Below are positions 47,840 through 59,147 of a stretch of DNA of 64,000 bases, piece after piece (position 1 is the first letter of the stretch; every line of letters begins with the position of its first letter). The stretch covers positions 1 through 64,000 of the forward strand of contig NZ_FRBE01000009.1 of NCBI RefSeq assembly GCF_900142535.1. Direction: 5' to 3'. The stretch is from Fibrobacter sp. UWEL. GTDB lineage: Bacteria; Fibrobacterota; Fibrobacteria; Fibrobacterales; Fibrobacteraceae. The notes under the pieces were generated by a model. It ran no database searches and had not been told where the DNA came from. It saw only the letters and a program-made list of their open reading frames with translations. The translations under genes and the position numbers were made by a program.

Positions 47840-49030
47840 TTACATATCGCCAGTCTTCAGCGGGGTATTGTCACGAATTCTGGTAAGAACCAGACCTAAC
47901 AGCATGTAGAACACCGCCTGCAGGGCCAAAGGATAAAGCAAGGAAGAAGCCTCGTAAATATCCGCACCGCGCTGTTCAATACTCAACCAAGCCGGAACAG
48001 CAAAGGTAGAAGGCAATAAAGCAGAAATACCATACATCCAGTTCGGAATCAATTCCGTGGGCCAGCTAAAGTTGGACAGGAACAAAATCGGAATGCTCAT
48101 ATACAGGAAGATCTGCATACTAGTCTCGCGGCGGAGGAATACCTGAGAAAGAACCATACCGAAATTGATGGTACTAAACAGGAACACCACAGCAAAGGCT
48201 ATCATGGGCAGAACTTGACCACGACGGGGGAAATCAAACACATTGTACACCACAAAGTGGTAGAACAAGATAAAGCTGCAATAGTGAAGGAAATATGCCA
48301 GAGAACGACCGAAATAACGGTAAGGCATCCGTTCGTTTTCCACTTCACTGTCACGAAGTTTCTTGCGGAACTTGCGATGGGCGCGAGCACCACCTAGTAC
48401 ACAAATACCAATGACCAGAGTCTGCTGGAGAATCAGCACCAATACACTGGGAACCACGTAATTGGAATAGCTGCCAGTATTATTGTACAAGGTCTGAATG
48501 CTAATCGGGGTTGGATCGCGCATGGCCATGGCCTTGGCGGCAGGAACCCTTCTTCCCAATGCAATTCGTTTCACCTTTGTGGTTGCACCCACGGTCAAAG
48601 CACATGTGGTAAATGCAGTACCGATGTTACCATGAAGCATGACGTATGCACCATGAGTATATACGTTCACCGTAGCGGTACCGCCATTACGCAAGGTCTT
48701 TTCCATGTCCTGGGGAATGACCATGAAACCGAAAATCTTATCATCGGCCATTGCGTTTTCCGCATCACGCAAGTCGGAGAATACATACTGCACATCAATC
48801 TGCTGAGCGGCAGCTGACATTTGCGTCAGCTGTCGAGACATGACCGTATGATCCAAATCCACTACAGCCACAGGAACCTTGGATACCGTCTGGTTCATGT
48901 AAGGCGTAGGATAGTAGAACGCATAAAGGATACCCGCAACTACCAGAAGCAACACTGCGGCGGCATCCGTATAGAACAGTTTCCATTCAGCGAAAGCTAC
49001 TTTAATGAGGCGTGTCAAAACTTCGATCAT
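47840..49030 (-). CDS. ABC-2-type permease, second of two
   Basis: The 396-residue protein has an N-terminal helix (about 22-42), an extracytoplasmic domain (about 45-190, including VPVAVVDLDHTVMSRQL) and five C-terminal helices. This is the YhhJ/YbhR-like ABC-2 layout used with HlyD-type adaptors and TolC. Its ATG overlaps the stop of the first permease (ATGA). The sequence has no ATP-binding domain, and no ATPase gene is in this operon. The exported substrate is unknown. Confidence 0.85.
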   Translation of the reverse strand: MIEVLTRLIKVAFAEWKLFYTDAAAVLLLVVAGILYAFYYPTPYMNQTVSKVPVAVVDLDHTVMSRQLTQMSAAAQQIDVQYVFSDLRDAENAMADDKIFGFMVIPQDMEKTLRNGGTATVNVYTHGAYVMLHGNIGTAFTTCALTVGATTKVKRIALGRRVPAAKAMAMRDPTPISIQTLYNNTGSYSNYVVPSVLVLILQQTLVIGICVLGGARAHRKFRKKLRDSEVENERMPYRYFGRSLAYFLHYCSFILFYHFVVYNVFDFPRRGQVLPMIAFAVVFLFSTINFGMVLSQVFLRRETSMQIFLYMSIPILFLSNFSWPTELIPNWMYGISALLPSTFAVPAWLSIEQRGADIYEASSLLYPLALQAVFYMLLGLVLTRIRDNTPLKTGDM

Positions 49031-50199
49031 TCTTTAACAGCCTCCCCCAAAATGTTTACAGCCTGCAAGCTCCATTCCTTTTCGCGCTTGGCAGCAACCT
49101 TCCAGCGGATAAAGAACAGACGAGTAGCAAGCAAATGCCAGAACAAGGCCATGAACATGAGAATCACGATGGATTCCCATGCGTGAGCCTTCCCCGCTTC
49201 TCCAAGAAGCATACTGGACTGAACCTTAAGAACGTGAGTCAAAGGCAAGCAGAATGCAAAACAGCGTACCGCGAAAGGCATGGCCATAATGGGGAACGTC
49301 TGACCAGCAAAAGCAAATGCGGGCCCAGCAATGACGCCAGCCACACTGGTTCCAAAACGCATGTTCCCCGTGATGGCAACAAAGGCAGCACCTGCGCCGT
49401 TACAAGCGAACACCATGGCCACCTGACCAGACGCGGTGATGATGAATTCGTCCAACGTCATGGGAGCCATAAAGCGGTGGGTATAAGCATACACACCCAC
49501 CATAGCCATGGATTGAATAATTCCCAGCGGAATAATGGTTGCAAGTCCTAGAATTGCACGAGAGCCGCCGGCAGCAGCCAGATATTCGCGAACACGATGG
49601 TCACGGAATGGCAAGCTAAACATGTACACCGCAGCCAAAATGCAAGCCAAATGGAAAATGGCGGTCACAAGACCCATCCCCAAAAAGCCCTGATAGTTTC
49701 CGGTGGAATTACCTACGGACTGAAGGGACACCTTAACCGGATCATTCATTCCCTTGGTAAAAAGGTTTGCCCCGATGGAAGAAATAACCGTACGGATTTC
49801 CTTTGTGGCAAAGGAATTGGTCAAGTAATTCTGTCCGCTGGAGTAAACAGGAATGACAGGGGTTTCAAAGCGAAGAGCACGGCGTTCCAGGTCGTAAGGC
49901 AAAAGCACGAAAGCTTGCAATTCGCCCTTTACCACCGCATGTTCACACTCGCTAAAATCACTGCATACCATCGCCACATCCACCACGGGATTGGCACGGA
50001 AGCCTTCCTCAAGTTCGTCTGCCAGCTGGCTACGATCCTGCTTGATGACACCAATAGGAATATGCTGGAGAATTTCAGCCGAAAACACGTCCACCATAAA
50101 GACAGACGTCGCAATAGGCAAGATAAGGATCACCAGCCACATCACCAGATTGTGGCCGAAATAAATCGTCCTTATCGTTCTAAAAAAACTAAGAAACAC
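49027..50199 (-). CDS. ABC-2-type permease, first of two
   Basis: The 390-residue protein has the same layout as its partner: an N-terminal helix (about 19-37), a periplasmic domain beginning IPIGVIKQDRSQLADEL and five or six C-terminal helices. The two probably form a heterodimer. The GTG start at 50199 is needed to keep the N-terminal segment; no clear RBS is visible, and translation may be coupled to the adaptor gene ending at 50218. Confidence 0.82.
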   Translation of the reverse strand: MFLSFFRTIRTIYFGHNLVMWLVILILPIATSVFMVDVFSAEILQHIPIGVIKQDRSQLADELEEGFRANPVVDVAMVCSDFSECEHAVVKGELQAFVLLPYDLERRALRFETPVIPVYSSGQNYLTNSFATKEIRTVISSIGANLFTKGMNDPVKVSLQSVGNSTGNYQGFLGMGLVTAIFHLACILAAVYMFSLPFRDHRVREYLAAAGGSRAILGLATIIPLGIIQSMAMVGVYAYTHRFMAPMTLDEFIITASGQVAMVFACNGAGAAFVAITGNMRFGTSVAGVIAGPAFAFAGQTFPIMAMPFAVRCFAFCLPLTHVLKVQSSMLLGEAGKAHAWESIVILMFMALFWHLLATRLFFIRWKVAAKREKEWSLQAVNILGEAVKE

Positions 50200-50217
50200 G
50201 AGAACCGTCCAGCGAGA

Positions 50218-51216
50218 TTACTGAATCTGATCCACGGGGAAAAGAACGCTCATGCCCGGGCGGAGATTTTCAATCTTTGCCTTCGGACGCATACGAACTT
50301 CAAAGCTCTTCAAATCAAAGCCACCACTTTCCTTGGAAGAACGCCAGGTGGCATAGTCACCCACAGAGGCGATGTAGGAAACTTCCATTTCCACATGCTG
50401 GTCCAGAGCGGGAATATACATGGAGAAAGACTTACCCTTGGACACATTCTTCAGCATATCTTCACGAAGGTGGAAAACAGCCCAGGAATCATCCAGATCG
50501 GTAACAGCAAGAATAGGCATACCGGAGCCAACCACTTCACCTTCTTCAATCAGCTTTACAGATACTTCACCAGAGATCGGAGCGCGGATCTTGGTTTCTT
50601 CCAGATAAGCATCCACTTCTGCATTGGCACCCTTAGCCTGGAGAACCAACGCATTTGCGGCGGCCTTGTCTTCGGAACGAGCACCAGCCAGAGCCTGATC
50701 ATACTGAGCCTTGGCAGCGTCTGCGGCAGACTGAGAAGCTCTCATCTGAGTTTCAGCCTCATCACGCTTCTGGAGAGGAAGAACACCTTCGCTGAAAAGT
50801 TTCTGCACGCGGTCGTAAGTATTGCGAGCAAGATTTGCAGCATCCTGAGCGCGATCTGCCATAGCCTTCAAGGCAGTCACATCTTCACTACGGGCACCAT
50901 TGCGAGCCTTGGATGCCTGAGCACGAGCGGCACCGAGAGCACCCTGAGCCTGCATCTTCTTTGCTTCAATTTCGGGGCTGCTGATAATGGCGACGATAGC
51001 ATTCTTTTCCACCATGTCACCTTCACGGAAGAACACAGTTTCTACACGACCAGGAACCTTACCGGCAACCAACACGCGACGAGCTTCCATCTGCCCCTGC
51101 AGGTATGCTTCACGAGGTTCAGTTGCAAACTTCTGCAAGGTGGAAATGCCCAGCACGATCAGTGCAATAAGGGCTGCAACCACAATCACTTTTCCGATAA
51201 CTTTCAGAGCTTTCAT
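50218..51216 (-). CDS. HlyD/EmrA-type membrane-fusion protein of the efflux operon
   Basis: The 332-residue protein has an N-terminal transmembrane helix (about 8-28). The barrel-sandwich (lipoyl-like) halves are VAGKVPGRVETVFFREGDMVEKNAIVA and IRAPISGEVSVKLIEEGEVV. A helical hairpin between them (about 85-205) is rich in Ala, Lys and Glu, and a beta-barrel domain follows. It links the inner-membrane permeases to TolC. GGAG lies 8 nt before the ATG at 51216; a GTG one codon earlier is less likely. Confidence 0.9.
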   Translation of the reverse strand: MKALKVIGKVIVVAALIALIVLGISTLQKFATEPREAYLQGQMEARRVLVAGKVPGRVETVFFREGDMVEKNAIVAIISSPEIEAKKMQAQGALGAARAQASKARNGARSEDVTALKAMADRAQDAANLARNTYDRVQKLFSEGVLPLQKRDEAETQMRASQSAADAAKAQYDQALAGARSEDKAAANALVLQAKGANAEVDAYLEETKIRAPISGEVSVKLIEEGEVVGSGMPILAVTDLDDSWAVFHLREDMLKNVSKGKSFSMYIPALDQHVEMEVSYIASVGDYATWRSSKESGGFDLKSFEVRMRPKAKIENLRPGMSVLFPVDQIQ

Positions 51217-51247
51217 CACTTATTCTCCATTTTCTAAAATCTTGATC

Positions 51248-53020
51248 TTACTGAGCCTGGGCAGGAGCTTCGACTACAGGCTGAGCAGCTTCTGCAGGAG
51301 CTGCGGGAGGGACAGGTTCATTAGCAGCATCTGCAGCAGGCATAGCCATAGGAGGCTGGACAGCCTGTGCCTCGGCAGGCTTGGCAGGCTCGACAACCTT
51401 AGCAGCCTCTTCAGCGGGAGCGGGTTCCACGGGCTTAACGTCCTTCAGCATTTCACCCGCATTAGCCACTTCGCCGCTTGCTTCCAGCAAACCAAGCCAG
51501 GCCACTACAGCGTCAAAATGAGCTTTCAGTTCGGCAACCTGCAGACGGGAAAGAGCCAGTTCGGCATCCACCACATCCAAACCAGTAGCAAGACCTGCTT
51601 CATAAGCAAGAGTCTGGCTGCGATGAGCTTCTTCAGCCAATTCGCGAGTCTTAGACAAGCTTACCAGACGGCTCTTGGCATGTTCCTTTTCGCGCCAACG
51701 CTTTTCCACAAGAAGCTTAATGTTATCAACAGTCTGTTCTTCCATGCTACCCAGGGAGCGGTCCAGAGCCTTTGCGTTTGCAACCTTGGAACGAGTTTCG
51801 CCGCCCTTGAACAAATCCCACTGGAGTTTTGCACCCACAGCCCATTCCGGTTCCAGAATGGTCAAATCCTTGGTATACAGTTCCTTATAGGCAAAAAGAG
51901 CAACCATAGGATAGTAATCACCCTGGGCGGCACTTACTGCAGCCTGGGAACGCTTACGTTCCGTACGGAGCTGGGCCAGACCAGGATGCTTTTCCAAAGC
52001 CATCTGTTTGAATTCTTCCATGGAATGCATGTTCTCGGGAGTGAGTACCGGAGTCACAGCAGTCAAGCTCGTATCTGTGTGAAGCAGACTTGCGAGAGCC
52101 ATACGGGCAAGGCTCTGATCTCGATAGGAATCTTCCAGAGCGTTTTCAGCTTCAGCCAAGGCAACTTCCGCACGGAGACGTTCGGCCTTACTAATCTGGC
52201 CACCTTCTTCCAACTTCTTGGAACGGGCAAGATGTTCTTCCAGGTTCTTCTTGGTCTCCTCACGCATAACGGTCAGTTCTTCTGCCAGACGCAAGGTGAA
52301 ATACTTGGTCGCCACATCCATCAGCACCGTATTCTGAGCCATTTCAAATGCGGCCTTCTTGGCAGTCACATTATCCTTGGCAGCACTATAGGCTGCAGTA
52401 CGCTTAAAGCCAGTAAACAAAGGCCAGATGGCGGTCAAGCGAGCGTTAAAGAACACATCGTCCTGAACCTTCATACTAAAGTCCTTGGAGTCCTTGATCT
52501 TTTCGGAGGCTGCGGCGCCATACTTTTCGGCCTGCTGGACAGCAGCGTCATTTGCATCCTTGCTAGACACAACCCCGCTCCAGATGTCCCCCATCTTGGC
52601 ATCCACTGCAGCCTTAGCCTGAGTTTTTGCAGCATCTTCGGTCATACCGGCGGCAACCATCTGCTTTACAGCACCATCATACAATTCACCATACTTCTTT
52701 TCGTAGGCGGCATTGTAAGTAGATACATAGGCCTTGGAATAGGCGGCGGCACCGGCAATATCACTTAGAGGGCCCTGCAGGGAACTTAAGTCAATTGTGA
52801 TAGGATCATTGATCTTTGTAACACTAGCTGTCAAGGTAAGCTGGGGCATAAAACGAGAACGAGCTTCGCTCTGGCCACTTTCAGCCATTTCGACCTTAGC
52901 CTTTTCAGCCTTAATCTGGGAATTGCTGCTTTTTGCCATTTCAATGGCGTCGGATAGCGTAATCGGAGCTGCAGAAGCAGCCATACAAGACGTAAGTAAG
53001 AGAGCCCAATACTTTTTCAT
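51248..53020 (-). CDS. TolC-family outer-membrane efflux protein
   Basis: The 590-residue protein has a signal peptide ending SCMAASA (about residue 17). Two TolC repeats begin with ITLSDAIEMAKSSNSQIKAEK and LEEHLARSKKLEEGGQISKAERLRAEVALAEAE, and long helices are evident. Extra residues (about 90-190) lie between the first helices. The C-terminal 90 residues are an Ala/Pro/Glu-rich tail that is unusual for TolC. The start at 53020 is set by the signal peptide; the longer frame upstream crosses a terminator. It heads the efflux operon. Confidence 0.88.
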   Translation of the reverse strand: MKKYWALLLTSCMAASAAPITLSDAIEMAKSSNSQIKAEKAKVEMAESGQSEARSRFMPQLTLTASVTKINDPITIDLSSLQGPLSDIAGAAAYSKAYVSTYNAAYEKKYGELYDGAVKQMVAAGMTEDAAKTQAKAAVDAKMGDIWSGVVSSKDANDAAVQQAEKYGAAASEKIKDSKDFSMKVQDDVFFNARLTAIWPLFTGFKRTAAYSAAKDNVTAKKAAFEMAQNTVLMDVATKYFTLRLAEELTVMREETKKNLEEHLARSKKLEEGGQISKAERLRAEVALAEAENALEDSYRDQSLARMALASLLHTDTSLTAVTPVLTPENMHSMEEFKQMALEKHPGLAQLRTERKRSQAAVSAAQGDYYPMVALFAYKELYTKDLTILEPEWAVGAKLQWDLFKGGETRSKVANAKALDRSLGSMEEQTVDNIKLLVEKRWREKEHAKSRLVSLSKTRELAEEAHRSQTLAYEAGLATGLDVVDAELALSRLQVAELKAHFDAVVAWLGLLEASGEVANAGEMLKDVKPVEPAPAEEAAKVVEPAKPAEAQAVQPPMAMPAADAANEPVPPAAPAEAAQPVVEAPAQAQ

Positions 53021-53124: not shown

Positions 53125-53150
53125 AAAAAAAGTCCCCTTTCTCAGGGGAC
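53125..53150 (-). terminator. Terminator after the lamin-tail lipoprotein
   Basis: GTCCCC (53132-53137) and GGGGAC (53145-53150) form a 6-bp GC stem followed on the minus strand by TTTTTTTAT. It separates the VTC operon from the efflux operon. Confidence 0.82.
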
Positions 53151-53167
53151 CCTAAAATCAAGTTTTA

Positions 53168-54820
53168 TTACTTACCTACAGTAGGTTCGGCAGCCTTCCA
53201 TGCAGAGGGACCGTAGCCCATTGTCGTCACATTGGTACGATGGAGGCTAAAGCCAGCGCCATCGGCGTCCGTAAGACCAGCCCAGGCGTCGGAATACAGA
53301 GTTGCATCATGCCAAACGTAGAAGTACTTTGTAGCACCACTCTTGTCCTTGGAAGTAGAATAAGGTTCCTTCACAGCAATGGTTTCACCTCGGTTAGAAA
53401 GCTTACCGGAATAGGTGAAAATCTGAACATCGGCAGGAACTCCATAGGAGGAACGAACCAGATCAGGACCATAGCCCGGAACATTCACATCTTCCAGAGT
53501 TGCAGGAATCAAGAGAATACGACCATTTGCAGGAATTACATCATTGGGGCCAAATTCAATGTTCACACCTTCAACCTTCCAGCCCTTCTTTGCAGTAGTG
53601 CTATAGAGGGTAATGGGAGCGGCAGTTGCATTTACCAGTTCCAGGAATTCAAAGGGAAGCAGGCCCTTTTCATTCGGATGGTAATGAATTTCATCAATGT
53701 AAACAGAACCCAGCTTGAGAGCGGAGTTTGCAGCACCCGGAGTAGCTTCTGCCAGAGGACCTTGAGCAATAGAGCCATCAGCCACATCCACAGTACCGCT
53801 AACACCAGTACCAGCAGGAATCCAAATACTAGATTCCTGACCTTCGGCAAGGCCGTACAGATAGATTTCACCACCCTGATCGGAAACAACCAATTCCTTA
53901 CTGAAGGCGGTTGCACCATCCAGAACCAGATAGCCACCTGCGGGAACAACGCCTGCATTTACAGTCAAGGTGTCATCACGAAGCTTTACATACAAAGTCC
54001 AGCCGGAAACGTCTACATCCACAGTTCCTGCATTGTACAATTCAATCCAGGATGCTTCATAGCCTGCGGCTCCCAGAGCAGAAGGCTTCACTTCGTTAAT
54101 ACGAACTGTGTTTACGGCCTCGATACAAGCATCGTTGCCAACACCCGGATTACCATTGGGTGCAGCACTTGCACACCAGGAAACAGACTGAGCAGCGATG
54201 CCACCAGTATAAACTAGAGAGCGACCCTTACCATCAGCAAGGCTAGGCCAAGGAGGTTCACTGCTGAATGCACAAGTCACGTCACCTTCGCCACGGACCT
54301 TCACATTCACCACGCCACCTTCGTTTACCATCTTGCCAGTCATGCCGCCAAAGACACGACCTGCGAAAGTGGGATAGGTAGACTTGAACAAAGTTTCATC
54401 GTTCGTAACCACCACGTACTCGCCCTTTTTCAAGGGCTCAGCGGGGAAAGTAAAGTCCACATCACCGCTCAAATGCAAGGCGTAGTTCACCATGTTGTCC
54501 ATGTCGGAACCACCAGCGATATAGATTTCCACCCATTCCAGAGCAGATCCGCCAGCGGAGTTATACATAATCTCGGAGCAGGCCATCTGAGGTTCATCGG
54601 TTTCAGACAAGGAAGAACTGGAAACCAGAACGCTGTTACCAGCGGAAGAAGAGGTAGGAACGGCAGTATTTGCGGAAGAAAGACCGCCTACACCTGCAGA
54701 AGAAGTTGCAACCGGGTCACCAGACGGCTGAGTCGGAGATGACGGATCGTCAGAGCATGCGGCCATCATGGAAACGAGGGCAACGCCAGCACCTGCAGTA
54801 ATAATCTTTTTGATATCCAT
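53168..54820 (-). CDS. Lipoprotein with lamin-tail domains
   Basis: The 550-residue protein has a lipoprotein signal ending MMAAC (Cys about residue 22) and a Ser/Thr-rich linker (about 25-75). It has two clear and one weaker lamin-tail-like (LTD) units, each starting with an I-x-E-(I/V) strand: CSEIMYNSAGGSALEWVEIY, VRINEVKPSALGAAGYEASWIELYN and VYIDEIHYHPNEKGLLPFEFLELVN. LTD proteins are often secreted and found next to CotH or VTC genes. It is the last gene of the DUF4956-HlyD-TolC-VTC operon, 34 bp after VTC. The start at 54820 has AAAGGA upstream. It may display or bind the operon product on the cell surface (inference). Confidence 0.82.
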   Translation of the reverse strand: MDIKKIITAGAGVALVSMMAACSDDPSSPTQPSGDPVATSSAGVGGLSSANTAVPTSSSAGNSVLVSSSSLSETDEPQMACSEIMYNSAGGSALEWVEIYIAGGSDMDNMVNYALHLSGDVDFTFPAEPLKKGEYVVVTNDETLFKSTYPTFAGRVFGGMTGKMVNEGGVVNVKVRGEGDVTCAFSSEPPWPSLADGKGRSLVYTGGIAAQSVSWCASAAPNGNPGVGNDACIEAVNTVRINEVKPSALGAAGYEASWIELYNAGTVDVDVSGWTLYVKLRDDTLTVNAGVVPAGGYLVLDGATAFSKELVVSDQGGEIYLYGLAEGQESSIWIPAGTGVSGTVDVADGSIAQGPLAEATPGAANSALKLGSVYIDEIHYHPNEKGLLPFEFLELVNATAAPITLYSTTAKKGWKVEGVNIEFGPNDVIPANGRILLIPATLEDVNVPGYGPDLVRSSYGVPADVQIFTYSGKLSNRGETIAVKEPYSTSKDKSGATKYFYVWHDATLYSDAWAGLTDADGAGFSLHRTNVTTMGYGPSAWKAAEPTVGK

Positions 54821-54854
54821 AGGAGACATCCTTTATGAGAGTATTTTCTCTATA

Positions 54855-55685
54855 TTACAAATTTTCTTCCAGAGTCGTACCAAGTTTTGTCCAGTAGGGG
54901 GTCTTGAAACGACGAGGATTTTCATAAATTCGCTGCCATTCCGCGGCGGCATTACCAAACTTGGAGAATCCGCCCTGTTTTAAGTTCAGGAATCGGATCA
55001 AGTCAATCATCCAGTAGGGCACCTGAGAGCAGGGACACTTCAGTTCCAATACGGCATCACAACCCGGCAAGAAGAATCGGGGAATACCCGTAGATTGCAT
55101 ATAGTGGGGATCCACCGTATAGTCGAAACCGTTTTCTTCGCGGAAACGCATGCCAGTATCGATAGTCACGCGGGAGTATTCTTCACGGAGGCCAAACCAG
55201 GCACGACGCTTATATTGAGTCAACAGACGAGGATGAGCGCCATGAAGTTCAGTCTTGTACAAGAAGTCCTTCAAATACTTACGGTCTTTTTCACCCTTGC
55301 AAGGCCATTCGTCTGGAGTCATATGCCAGACTTCGCCAGGATTAATTCCCTTAATAGTAGCGCGGCTCTTATAGCAAATGCTCTTAATCTTACGTTTCAC
55401 CTCAAAGTGGAACGTACCATCCTGTGCAGGATGCTCACCGTAAGTGCGGATACGCATATTAAAGCGATCCAACAACTGTTTTTTCTTCCAACCCAGGAAC
55501 GTCCAGGAGGGAGTATCCAAATACAGATTGGTAATCCAGTAGAATCCACCAGGTGTAATTTTGGAGTAGTAGTCTTCTTCGCAATAGGGAGCAATGAAGG
55601 CGCCGATCTTATCGGCCCATTCCACAGGGATGTGGTACTTCAGCTCGAAGCGTTCGAGAAGACTAAATCCGCGGGCTTCTGCCAT
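54855..55685 (-). CDS. VTC-domain protein, putative polyphosphate polymerase
   Basis: The 276-residue protein shows the VTC/CYTH-like tunnel-fold motifs in order: RFELKYHIP (12-20), MRIRTYG (77-83), HFEVKRK (93-99), KSRATI (106-111), SRVTIDTGMRF (171-181), AVLELKC (211-217) and a late FSKFG. The basic residues and the acidic E-x-K pairs match those that bind nucleotide, metal and polyphosphate in yeast Vtc4. It has no signal peptide, so it acts in the cytoplasm, perhaps docked to DUF4956. It starts 1 bp after the TolC-like gene. Activity is inferred from motifs only. Confidence 0.88.
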   Translation of the reverse strand: MAEARGFSLLERFELKYHIPVEWADKIGAFIAPYCEEDYYSKITPGGFYWITNLYLDTPSWTFLGWKKKQLLDRFNMRIRTYGEHPAQDGTFHFEVKRKIKSICYKSRATIKGINPGEVWHMTPDEWPCKGEKDRKYLKDFLYKTELHGAHPRLLTQYKRRAWFGLREEYSRVTIDTGMRFREENGFDYTVDPHYMQSTGIPRFFLPGCDAVLELKCPCSQVPYWMIDLIRFLNLKQGGFSKFGNAAAEWQRIYENPRRFKTPYWTKLGTTLEENL

Positions 55686-55686
55686 A

Positions 55687-57066
55687 TTACTTCAGGCCCT
55701 TCTGGAGGTGATTCAGCACGCCTTCCTCGGAGAGGACGCCTGCATACTGAAGCAAAGCCAAGTAGCGGTTATAGATTTCGTTTTCCAGCTTGATAGCTTT
55801 CACATTGCTGGCGATAGCGCTTTCGCGTGCACGAAGCTGCAGCAAGGGATCAGAGCCAGCGTTCTTGGCAAACTGTTCAAAAATGCTATTGGAAGTAACC
55901 TGTTCCACAAATTCCTTCTGGACCTTCCACTGGGATACCAGAGAATTGATTTCTTCCACCAGCTTTGCAACCTTCTGGTTGATATCACGGACATCATCCA
56001 TGTAATCACCTTCTGCATCCAGGTCTGCCACCTGAGCGCGAAGCTGACTATCCTTGTTACTATCGAAGAACGGCAGACGGAAAGCAAGGTTTGCAAAGAA
56101 CTTATCGGCAGTCTTGCGATTGTCTGTTTCGGGAACGAGAACTCGTGCGGTAGAAGTACAGCCTAGCTGGCTTGTACAACCCGTTTCCTTTTCAAATTCA
56201 CTCTTGTAATCGGAATAAGAACCAGTACCGTAAACATCATAGGCATCCAGGTCCTTATACTTTTCCATCATAGATTCAATCTTCATGGAATAGCCGATGC
56301 CAATGTGAGAGATGTAATCACGGTCGCTAGCCATATCCTGGCGAGCCTTGGACTTTTCTTCCTTCAGCTTACCGGCAGCCATAGCCATCAGGGGGAAGTT
56401 TTCGTCAACAGTAACGCCACCTTCCAGCTGCTTAATCACATCTTCAATGGAGGGGAGCCAGGAGGAATCCAGTTCTACAGTATCAAAATCAGGAACCCAC
56501 TGGTGGAGCTTCACTGTGTAGAATTCAAGGGAAGTGCTATCGCTAATCAGTTCTGCACGAAGGTCAGCTTCTTTCTCGATTGCATCCATCAGTTCCTGGG
56601 GATTAAAACTAGGAGAACCAGACTTCAGGTGAAGGACTTCAATACGATCCAGATTTACCTGGTACAGTTCCTTGGTCAGCTGATTCATACGCTGACGCAG
56701 CAAGTAGTGGATGCCACGTTCATAGCGGTCATACAGGAGAACACCACGGTCCGCAGCCAAATGGGCTTTCTGATAAGCAGCCTGTGCTTCCCAGTGATCA
56801 CGATCTGCAGAACCTTCGCCAAAGGCCTTGGGAACGACACGAAGTTCAAAGTCATGAGATGCAAAACTGAAGCCATCCAGCTTGTAGCGCAATTCCAACT
56901 TGTCCCAAAGTTTGGTACTTCTTCCAGTAGAAGTCATTTCTGCGCGTTTCTGGGCAGTCTGGTAACGCGGGTCATCATCCACAGACTTAATCAGCTTATC
57001 CCAAGTAAGGGGACTTGCAAAAGCTGCAGCGGACAATGCTAGAGTTGCCAAGCCAAACTTATTCAT
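55687..57066 (-). CDS. TolC-like outer-membrane factor of the VTC operon
   Basis: The 459-residue protein has a signal peptide (about 1-17, ending AAFAS). Long heptad-like helices (e.g. LLRQRMNQLTKELYQVNLDRIEVLHLK and DVRDINQKVAKLVEEINSLVSQWKV) are separated by beta-strand segments, the TolC-repeat pattern, although divergent. A short insert with two Cys (ETGCTSQLGCTSTA) could form a disulfide. It lies between the HlyD-like adaptor and VTC. AGGT precedes the ATG at 57066. Confidence 0.72.
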   Translation of the reverse strand: MNKFGLATLALSAAAFASPLTWDKLIKSVDDDPRYQTAQKRAEMTSTGRSTKLWDKLELRYKLDGFSFASHDFELRVVPKAFGEGSADRDHWEAQAAYQKAHLAADRGVLLYDRYERGIHYLLRQRMNQLTKELYQVNLDRIEVLHLKSGSPSFNPQELMDAIEKEADLRAELISDSTSLEFYTVKLHQWVPDFDTVELDSSWLPSIEDVIKQLEGGVTVDENFPLMAMAAGKLKEEKSKARQDMASDRDYISHIGIGYSMKIESMMEKYKDLDAYDVYGTGSYSDYKSEFEKETGCTSQLGCTSTARVLVPETDNRKTADKFFANLAFRLPFFDSNKDSQLRAQVADLDAEGDYMDDVRDINQKVAKLVEEINSLVSQWKVQKEFVEQVTSNSIFEQFAKNAGSDPLLQLRARESAIASNVKAIKLENEIYNRYLALLQYAGVLSEEGVLNHLQKGLK

Positions 57067-57120
57067 AAACACTACCTAATAATTAATTCTGGTTTCTACG
57101 ATTCAAACATCCACAAACAA

Positions 57121-57174
57121 TCTCTGAGCCCAATACTCAAAAATGTATTACTCAGAAAACGCACTACTCAGAGA
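57121..57174. repeat. Short direct and inverted repeats between HlyD-like and TolC-like genes
   Basis: On the minus strand TCTGAGTA recurs with a period of about 16 nt (TCTGAGTA, TCTGAGTA, TTGAGTA). The outer TCTCTGAG/CTCAGAGA (57121-57128 and 57167-57174) is an inverted repeat. It fills the 97-bp gap inside the VTC operon. Confidence 0.55.
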
Positions 57175-58228
57175 TAGTCACCATCTCACCCAAAAGGAAC
57201 GGATTCTCTTCGGGAATCTTGATAATCACTTCACGACCGTGGATAGGCATTTCAGGCATCTTCCACATACGCATGGGGAATTCAACGATACGGCTGGACA
57301 GACCAACCACTTCGCCCTTAATAGCCTTGCCGGTACCACCCAAGGTACGGACCTTAACCGTTTCGCCAACGTCCATACGCTGGTACATACGTTCGTGAAT
57401 GTAGCCACGAACCAGAGTGGGAGACTTATGGGTCAAGGTCACCACCGGAGCAAAGCTGGACATCTTTTCACCGTCGCGAGCATTCACAGAGCCCACAACC
57501 CAGTCTTCCTTAGCAACCTGAACCAGTTCTTCCTGCTGCTTCTGAAGTTCAGCAAGTTCCTTCTTCAGGTTTTCCACTTCGGTAGCACCGGCACTCTTCT
57601 GGAGGCGACCACTACTCTTGAGGAGCTTGATCTGTTCGTTAGCATTAGCCTGGAGAACAGCAAGTTCGTTCTTCAAGCTCTTGATGCGAAGGACTGTTGC
57701 GTCGCTGCCATCGTTCTGAGCGTTGGAACCCTTCAGGCTCTTCAGCTTGGCGGTAATTTCCTTGTTTCTCTGGTATTCAGTTTCCAGATTACGAATTTCG
57801 GACTTGAGGGTCAAGCTGCGAGAAGAAAGATCAGCCTTCACTTCGGCTACCTTCTGGTCAATTTCTGCAGTAGACAAGCTGCTGCGACCTTCAATAGCAT
57901 CCAGTTCGCGGGTCAACTCGGTAATACGGAGCACCAGATCCGGACGGTTCAGTTCTACAATGGTGTCACCAGCATGAATGGACTGGCCAGGCATCACATG
58001 TACCTTCACCACTTCAGTGGGGCTGGGCAGGCTAATGGTGGTTTCAGTAGCTTCAGCGATGCCCTGGAACATAGAGGCCTTGCCAGCAAACATGAAACCC
58101 ATCACAATAACAATCACAATGCTCAAGCACCAAGCGTAAATCAGTTTGTGCTTGTAGGCGTGAGCCACGCCAGCATTGGACTTGTGCTTATTCCAGAAAA
58201 TGTCGAAAGCTTCTTCAATCTTATTCAT
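57164..58228 (-). CDS. HlyD-family membrane-fusion protein of the VTC operon
   Basis: The 354-residue protein has a cytoplasmic N-terminus, one transmembrane helix (about 31-50) and a first biotinyl-lipoyl half with LPSPTEVVKVHVMPGQSIHAGDTIV. A long coiled-coil hairpin (about 100-245) follows, then a second half (EDWVVGSVNARDGEKMSSF) and a beta-barrel domain. It should span the periplasm between an inner-membrane partner and the TolC-like protein. The only inner-membrane candidate in the operon is DUF4956. GGAGAG precedes the ATG. Confidence 0.85.
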   Translation of the reverse strand: MNKIEEAFDIFWNKHKSNAGVAHAYKHKLIYAWCLSIVIVIVMGFMFAGKASMFQGIAEATETTISLPSPTEVVKVHVMPGQSIHAGDTIVELNRPDLVLRITELTRELDAIEGRSSLSTAEIDQKVAEVKADLSSRSLTLKSEIRNLETEYQRNKEITAKLKSLKGSNAQNDGSDATVLRIKSLKNELAVLQANANEQIKLLKSSGRLQKSAGATEVENLKKELAELQKQQEELVQVAKEDWVVGSVNARDGEKMSSFAPVVTLTHKSPTLVRGYIHERMYQRMDVGETVKVRTLGGTGKAIKGEVVGLSSRIVEFPMRMWKMPEMPIHGREVIIKIPEENPFLLGEMVTISE

Positions 58229-58240
58229 GATTCACTCTCC

Positions 58241-58924
58241 TTACATTTCCGTGGTGGCGTCCTGCATCATGAACGCGATGTCTGAGATACCTTCGATTGC
58301 AGAAAGTTCCTTAATGATTTCTGCAGCGGGCTTGTTAGCGCGAAGACGGATCTGATAAGCGCAATCCACACGAGCACCGCCATCCACCTCACGCATAGTG
58401 ATGAGAATGTAAGTCTTAAGATTCTTGCGAAGGACGTCTTCAATAGCCAGACGGGGAGCGGATTCGTTGGGCAATGCGAAACGGAGCATACCATCAAAGA
58501 AGTGCTTGGTACCAAGACCAGTACGGGAAATCAGGAAAGCAACGAGGCAGAAAGCCACAGTACCACCGAGAGCAGCACCCCAGGCATAAACACCGCAACC
58601 AATACCGGCGCCCAAGGAAGCGAAGATAAACATAATGTCGCGGGGATCCTTAAAGCTGGTACGGAAACGAACCACGGAAAGGGCACCCATCATACCAAGG
58701 CCACGGCCCACATTGTCACCGATGGCGGACATCACCATAGCGGCAACTACAGAACTCAAAACAATACCCTGAACGAAATTACGAGAGTAAGAAAGGCCAA
58801 GGAAGGTCTTTTCGTATGTCCAGGCGATGACGGAGGAAAGGATAAAGGCCAGAATGAGAGTATAGGCCAGAGTGATAAGAGATGCGTTGGCAGTGCCAGA
58901 TTGGACCGCTAAAAGGTCGAGCAT
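58241..58924 (-). CDS. DUF4956 membrane protein
   Basis: The 227-residue protein has about four hydrophobic helices in its first 130 residues: LITLAYTLILAFILSSVIAW, VQGIVLSSVVAAMVMSAIGD and IMFIFASLGAGIGCGVYAWG onward. A conserved MMGALSVVRFRTSFKDPRD loop lies between helices, and a soluble ferredoxin-like C-terminus (about 150-227) ends it. The loop R-F-R-T-x-x-K-D-P-R-D is typical of DUF4956. Members co-occur with VTC-domain proteins across bacteria, and a membrane partner or conduit role has been suggested but not shown. It is the first gene of the operon, with GGAG 6 nt before the ATG. Confidence 0.88.
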   Translation of the reverse strand: MLDLLAVQSGTANASLITLAYTLILAFILSSVIAWTYEKTFLGLSYSRNFVQGIVLSSVVAAMVMSAIGDNVGRGLGMMGALSVVRFRTSFKDPRDIMFIFASLGAGIGCGVYAWGAALGGTVAFCLVAFLISRTGLGTKHFFDGMLRFALPNESAPRLAIEDVLRKNLKTYILITMREVDGGARVDCAYQIRLRANKPAAEIIKELSAIEGISDIAFMMQDATTEM

Positions 58925-59107
58925 AGAGACTCCGTTTCGGTTTATAACAATTACACCCCATAATTTACTTTAAAAACGCCATTTTTCGGGCATTTTTTGT
59001 GTAAAAATGGTTGAACAAAAACCAAAGAAATCTCTAAATAGGAATCATTTTGGGAATAAAATGCCCTATTTTAACACACCCAAGTTCAAAATATAAAAAA
59101 GTGACAA

Positions 59108-59140
59108 TTTCGTACGTGAAGTTCATCACATTTTACGAAA
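59108..59140 (-). terminator. Possible terminator after batB
   Basis: TTTCGTA-C-GTGA pairs with TCAC-ATTT-TACGAAA (7 + 4 bp with an internal loop). On the minus strand a TTTTTTA run follows 7 nt later. It lies just past the batB stop. The rest of 58925-59147 is AT-rich and presumably carries the promoter of the VTC operon. Confidence 0.5.
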
Positions 59141-59147
59141 AATAAAA

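Follow-up and report, generated by a model that had tools for sequence, protein, structure and literature searches.

In Fibrobacter sp. UWEL, five genes that follow one another closely on the minus strand encode a DUF4956 membrane protein, a HlyD-type periplasmic adaptor, a TolC-fold outer-membrane channel, a VTC-domain protein and a lamin-tail (LTD) lipoprotein. They lie at 53168-58924 of the stretch analysed here, the first 64,000 nucleotides of contig NZ_FRBE01000009.1 (RefSeq assembly GCF_900142535.1), which is called the window throughout. Comparison across the phylum Fibrobacterota showed that the order and strand of the genes are the same in every locus that carries all five, that the VTC protein retains catalytic residues of the yeast polymerase subunit Vtc4, and that the set contains no conventional pump. 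These results tentatively point to an operon for synthesis-coupled export of polyphosphate, or of a closely related phosphate polymer, to the cell surface, a reading that we place slightly below an even chance because it chains four inferred steps. Bacterial VTC and DUF4956 proteins are widespread, and for those of this operon the order of the genes by itself suggests a function, in which the polymerase exports the polyphosphate that it makes.

The conserved operon and its VTC protein

The five genes, in the order in which they would be transcribed, are as follows.

58241-58924, minus strand: DUF4956 protein, 227 aa (PF16316)
57164-58228, minus strand: HlyD-type periplasmic adaptor, 354 aa (HlyD_3 and hydropathy)
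55687-57072, minus strand: TolC-fold outer-membrane channel, 461 aa, with signal peptide (OEP, and AlphaFold2 model with Foldseek and VIA)
54855-55685, minus strand: VTC-domain (triphosphate tunnel) polyphosphate polymerase candidate, 276 aa (PF09359 and profile match to Vtc4)
53168-54829, minus strand: lamin-tail (LTD) lipoprotein, 553 aa, with three LTD units (LTD and lipobox)

A first-pass annotation, made from the sequence letters, had proposed these five reading frames, their families and their operon character. All five were found at the proposed place and on the proposed strand, the intergenic gaps from DUF4956 to LTD being 12, 91, 1 and 25 bp, and every Pfam score exceeded its curated cut-off, although that for OEP did so marginally; the operon character was likewise borne out.

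VTC was surveyed in 168 genomes of the phylum, which yielded 63 named loci. The results showed that all five genes were on one strand and in one order in 35 of 35 loci of one set and 57 of 57 of another (92 of 92 together; the sets overlap in genomes), with VTC lying within the operon and flanked by TolC and LTD each time. This order spans at least 16 genera and four families of the phylum, and in a fifth family (f10) the first four genes are kept and no LTD was detected. Median identity among loci was 86% for VTC, 81% for DUF4956, 67% for the adaptor, 56% for the channel and 48% for the lipoprotein. The flanking genes vary: VWA genes stand upstream only in close relatives, and a downstream TolC-HlyD-ABC operon goes with the set in few genera, the window genus among them. 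The claimed linkage of VTC with DUF4956 was also recovered, the pair co-occurring phylum-wide with mismatches mainly in fragmented genomes. The first-pass annotation had predicted conservation of the gene order and had named loss of the neighbours in relatives as evidence against its reading; since order and strand are kept in all five-gene loci, no such loss was seen, and the neighbours persist far beyond the genus. A 674-aa open reading frame in one locus (L032) that resembled a TolC-VTC fusion proved to be two genes in different frames.

The VTC protein matched PF09359 with 103 bits (curated cut-off 23) and contains the tunnel motifs that had been claimed for it, as MRIRTYG, FEVKRK, TIDTGM and LELK. 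In an alignment of 23 relatives, R78, R80, E95, K97, K106, R108, R160, R172, E214, K216, S241 and K242 (protein numbering) were kept. A profile of these 23 relatives searched against the Protein Data Bank (PDB) matched yeast Vtc4 (3g3q, E 2.9e-7); the multi-member profile was required, as phmmer with the single protein gave zero matches there. Counted along the profile alignment, R78, R80 and E214 fall on Vtc4 R264, R266 and E426, the residues whose mutation rendered Vtc4 inactive in the cryo-EM work on the complex (PMC9911596). Mutated catalytic residues in relatives, which had also been named as evidence against the first reading, were not seen, the residues being conserved in all type-1 relatives aligned (a second VTC, type 2, is described below). 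The SPX and transmembrane domains of Vtc4 were absent from the window protein by Pfam and hydropathy, leaving a soluble protein that consists of the VTC domain alone.

Neither PPK1 nor PPK2 was found in the window genome (3.53 Mb, 99.98% complete), which has one Ppx-GppA, and VTC is therefore its only recognised polyphosphate synthase. Within the genus Fibrobacter, VTC occurred in 76 of 80 genomes, PPK1 in three and PPK2 in none, and over the phylum VTC and the PPKs were anti-correlated (a count uncorrected for relatedness). The VTC protein would likely make polyphosphate at the inner membrane. Its standing as the sole candidate synthase would also suit an ordinary maker of intracellular polyphosphate stores whose neighbours are a hitch-hiking envelope operon. 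However, the order is fixed over at least 16 genera while the flanks change, and VTC starts 1 bp after TolC in the window, and we regard this explanation as very improbable.

DUF4956 and a proposed HlyD-TolC conduit without a pump

The adaptor matched HlyD_3 with 37.7 bits (curated cut-off 22.2) and has one N-terminal transmembrane helix (27-55) and lipoyl halves flanking a coiled coil. The OEP match of the TolC-like protein was marginal (22.4 bits, curated cut-off 22.0), and a TolC profile searched against the PDB by sequence found no relative; fold comparison alone gave one. The AlphaFold2 model (predicted local distance difference test score, pLDDT, 81) matched TolC and SilC in Foldseek with E about 1e-10, and its comparison with TolC by VIA gave Z 23.8 over 387 residues with a root-mean-square deviation of 4.7. 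The claimed TolC-like helices are thus part of a predicted TolC fold, a helical barrel of two repeats with beta strands, which settles the marginal OEP call. Within the second repeat, residues 406-417 read GSDPLLQLRARES where a motif of the vLdAq type is usual. Arg414 stands at what we take to be the position of the E. coli TolC aperture Asp; this charge inversion was confined to family f1 and hence was not used as evidence.

HlyD-type adaptors normally connect an energised inner-membrane pump with TolC. None of the five conserved genes encodes an ABC, RND or MFS pump, and DUF4956 is the only polytopic membrane protein of the set, with several hydrophobic stretches by hydropathy, implying that it occupies the pump's place. 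Past the terminator-like hairpin, at 49027-53020 on the minus strand, there is a separate operon of ordinary efflux type, with a longer TolC (ATG about 53019), HlyD and an ABC-2 permease. It was considered as the source of the missing pump and rejected, having its own HlyD and TolC and not being conserved with the set.

The DUF4956 protein matched PF16316 with 46.5 bits (curated cut-off 30.6). Its comparison with MgtC relatives from the same phylum by hhalign gave a probability of 97 over the membrane and ACT-like parts; a noisy first alignment had given 27, a cleaned set gave 94 and the wider DUF4956 alignment 97, with E 1.3e-10 in one comparison. Pfam run on the window protein as a single sequence did not report MgtC. 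In genome G167, a short gene next to VTC (C57:8833-9201; L046:8788-9309) matched both DUF4956 and MgtC and forms a sequence bridge. On these profile comparisons DUF4956 is a distant homologue of MgtC, and a Streptococcus member has likewise been viewed as MgtC-related (PMC12345266). R86, R88 and G107 were invariant in 27 of 27 DUF4956 members from Fibrobacterota, Bacteroidota and Bacillota, an invariance that is new in this analysis, and the R-x-R pair is not in the MgtC consensus of the same alignment. An anion contact is a natural reading of this pair, and is offered only as that. An AlphaFold2 model built with 25 close homologues reached a pLDDT of 53 and was left out of fold searching.

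A comparable arrangement is seen in Hymenobacter volaticus, where a plasmid (L125:4754-7994) carries a HlyD-like protein, DUF4956 and a TolC protein in a row. The TolC protein matched OEP with E 5e-41; the HlyD-like protein has a fitting anatomy and a weak match to the window's second HlyD (hhalign E 5.5e-5), with no Pfam hit. This arrangement gives an independent hint that DUF4956 replaces the pump.

HlyD-TolC pairs normally serve efflux, and the same proteins might expel an ion or small molecule, with VTC serving only as a regulator of this efflux or as an intracellular buffer of phosphate or metal. The Hymenobacter set, which has no VTC nearby, would suit such a role, as would the homology of DUF4956 to MgtC, a protein tied to magnesium and phosphate homeostasis (PMC12345266). 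However, DUF4956 is otherwise tied to VTC, which lies within the operon in all 92 loci, and efflux leaves the lamin-tail lipoprotein unexplained. Moreover, we know of no transporter fold for DUF4956, and this explanation is considered unlikely.

Gene contexts elsewhere and the proposed export route

In other Fibrobacterota, a second (type-2) VTC adjoins DUF4956 and an OprO/P-like protein, together with CotH and Cthe_2159 proteins, the latter being carbohydrate-binding. The porin gave weak Porin_O_P matches in seven of nine members (best E 2.9e-5, near the cut-off), and a porin profile from these loci found no relative in the PDB. DUF4956 matches are better at the type-2 loci (L022, L023, L024, L025, L026, L039, L040, L043, L045 and L049). 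Outside the phylum, where the comparison was drawn from plasmid records, a Pseudoalteromonas plasmid (L160:5276-7654) carries, consecutively, an LTD gene, a short remnant of VTC, DUF4956 and, starting 1 bp after it, a Porin_O_P porin (162 bits). Aminobacter and Shinella have DUF4956, VTC and a phytase-like gene, to which Nitratireductor adds a PiT phosphate transporter, and in Deinococcus the VTC-DUF4956 pair has an acid phosphatase and a phn-type transporter nearby, or CotH. These contexts point to a phosphate link and, in several lineages with an outer membrane, to an outer-membrane exit, although not as a strict rule. In some loci of family f7 the HlyD C-terminus carries a fused beta-propeller domain that is weakly phytase-like (L035:5691-7667, L037:11149-13110, L051:11331-13298), and in others this domain forms a separate gene between adaptor and TolC (L050:6712-7668, L053:3826-4626, L054:6971-7891). 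The alphaproteobacterial and f7 proteins could not be joined as one family, being not directly alignable (hhalign probability 4.6), and the phytase link is for that reason treated as suggestive.

The first-pass annotation had also associated VTC and DUF4956 with CotH, and the genome counts bear this out. VTC and CotH were both present in 134 of the 168 genomes, VTC only in two, CotH only in eight and neither in 24 (uncorrected for relatedness); by genus the corresponding numbers were 27, 1, 2 and 11. Family f4 has two genomes with both and eight with neither. In several f7 and f10 loci the gene immediately upstream of the set is CotH, and CotH also neighbours VTC-DUF4956 in Deinococcus, Planococcus and Pseudobutyrivibrio. 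This co-occurrence supports a shared task outside the cytoplasm. Genomes of the genus hold as many as a dozen CotH-kinase matches. The window genome has ten, the majority of them in long open frames and two on the window contig (C9:94788-95741 and C9:116698-117639).

One form of such a task would be the supply of extracytoplasmic phosphate or phosphoryl groups to secreted kinases of the CotH type and comparable reactions at the surface, the exported chain being a phosphoryl donor and not a structural or storage polymer. The joint presence and absence of VTC and CotH, their adjacency in f7, f10 and other phyla and the many CotH genes of the window genome itself are in keeping with this possibility. 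It is nevertheless judged quite unlikely, as CotH is known as an ATP-using kinase and is not known to use polyphosphate, lies outside the operon in the window genus and is missing from two genomes that have VTC.

A similarly low likelihood is given to a role in making or modifying a polysaccharide or adhesin layer at the surface, with VTC phosphorylating or charging a carrier or glycan, as the Pel-linked Gram-positive cassette might, and HlyD-TolC secreting that material. CotH-VTC-DUF4956 stands beside pel operons in streptococci, clostridia and bifidobacteria, and loss of DUF4956 or CotH alters the amount of Pel (PMC7112168, PMC12345266); the Cthe_2159 proteins at type-2 loci would also fit. 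However, the conserved set has no glycosyltransferase, and PelG was not found in the window genome.

The export of polyphosphate that we prefer would proceed as follows. VTC, docked beneath the inner membrane, would move ATP gamma-phosphates onto a growing chain. DUF4956, its ACT-like domain facing the cytoplasm, would hold VTC and pass the chain, with Arg-x-Arg as a possible anion contact. The adaptor would couple DUF4956 to the TolC-fold channel, so that periplasm and outer membrane are crossed in one conduit, and polymerisation would drive the passage, as it does in the yeast VTC complex. We infer all of these steps, from enzyme activity through docking and passage to surface location and purpose. 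That this amounts to dedicated secretion without a conventional pump, in which the VTC chain runs through an MgtC-like protein into HlyD-TolC and OprO/P porins serve as other exits elsewhere, is a possibility to which we give somewhat less credence than an even chance would warrant.

The last step is speculative: the lamin-tail lipoprotein may hold or use the product at the outer surface. It matched LTD with 91.9 bits in three units (curated cut-off 34.3) and has a slightly unusual lipobox, MAAC, as claimed by the first-pass annotation; among 99 LTD relatives, 87 fit a relaxed lipobox pattern. The protein is acidic (61 D+E versus 32 K+R), so that any contact with the product would perhaps be made via divalent cations.

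Several observations weigh against export. Direct polyphosphate binding by the lipoprotein is unlikely because of its acidity, and no pore in DUF4956 could be inspected because its model was poor. The Hymenobacter set lacks a nearby VTC, and the alphaproteobacterial and Deinococcus pairs have no adjacent outer-membrane partner despite an outer membrane. The literature searched gave no bacterial VTC protein with measured activity, and it yielded no report either on polyphosphate in Fibrobacter or on TolC-dependent export of the polymer. In Streptococcus intermedius, Pel amount and aggregation changed when the DUF4956 gene was deleted, and no such change is reported for deletion of VTC (PMC12345266), so that the module may serve polysaccharide and not polyphosphate.

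Among the nearest known systems, the yeast VTC complex (Vtc1/3/4) shares the VTC-type tunnel polymerase and its catalytic residues; in its cryo-EM structure the tunnel exit faces a membrane channel, and synthesis and translocation are structurally coupled (PMC9911596). The Fibrobacter VTC differs in being separate and soluble, the candidate passage is the MgtC-like DUF4956, and a periplasmic and outer-membrane conduit is added. With the Gram-positive CotH-VTC-DUF4956 cassette, already published as a Pel accessory, the operon shares the VTC-type polymerase and DUF4956, and in many genomes the link to CotH, which adjoins the operon only in part of the phylum. It differs in having HlyD and TolC between DUF4956 and VTC, and the lipoprotein; the Fibrobacterota form lies outside the Pel context, with no PelG in the window genome, and adds three envelope parts. 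The authors of the 2025 paper on the cassette (of the pair PMC7112168 and PMC12345266) did not find the arrangement outside pel loci. The earlier statement that no such system had been described therefore holds in part: neither the five-part envelope-spanning form nor a HlyD-TolC-LTD extension was found in the literature searched, whereas the three-gene cassette is published.

Tripartite efflux and type I secretion systems have the same adaptor and TolC-fold channel, whereas the Fibrobacter set has no ABC, RND or MFS pump. In synthase-dependent secretion of Pel and alginate, a polymer is made at the inner membrane and then handled by dedicated periplasmic and outer-membrane parts; here the polymerase is of polyphosphate type and not a glycosyltransferase, and the conduit is HlyD-TolC. 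DUF4956 aligns with the MgtC family (PF02308) over its whole length, including the ACT-like domain, and differs by the invariant R-x-R and the pairing with VTC. If export is true, the operon would encode a secretion machine of a new kind, in which a tripartite conduit spans the envelope and no classic pump takes part. It would be a bacterial counterpart of the yeast complex and would give polyphosphate a way out of the cell in a dominant gut lineage of cellulose degraders. Most Fibrobacter genomes lack PPK.

Boundaries of the operon

Two further features flank the genes.

58925-59147, minus strand: upstream intergenic region, A+T-rich, presumed promoter (consensus-like at 59097-59068, with a chance-level score)
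53129-53153, minus strand: terminator-like hairpin with T-run, 3' of the last gene (scan and position)

The terminator that the first-pass annotation placed after the last gene is matched by this hairpin (53153-53129), which lies 15 bp past the LTD stop codon. Over the whole scan, terminators were fewer than in shuffled sequence, and the call therefore relies on position. For the TolC-like gene, whose open reading frame extends to 57072, an ATG start at 57066 is more likely. The window VTC protein is 97-98% identical to those of Fibrobacter metagenome-assembled genomes from horse faeces.

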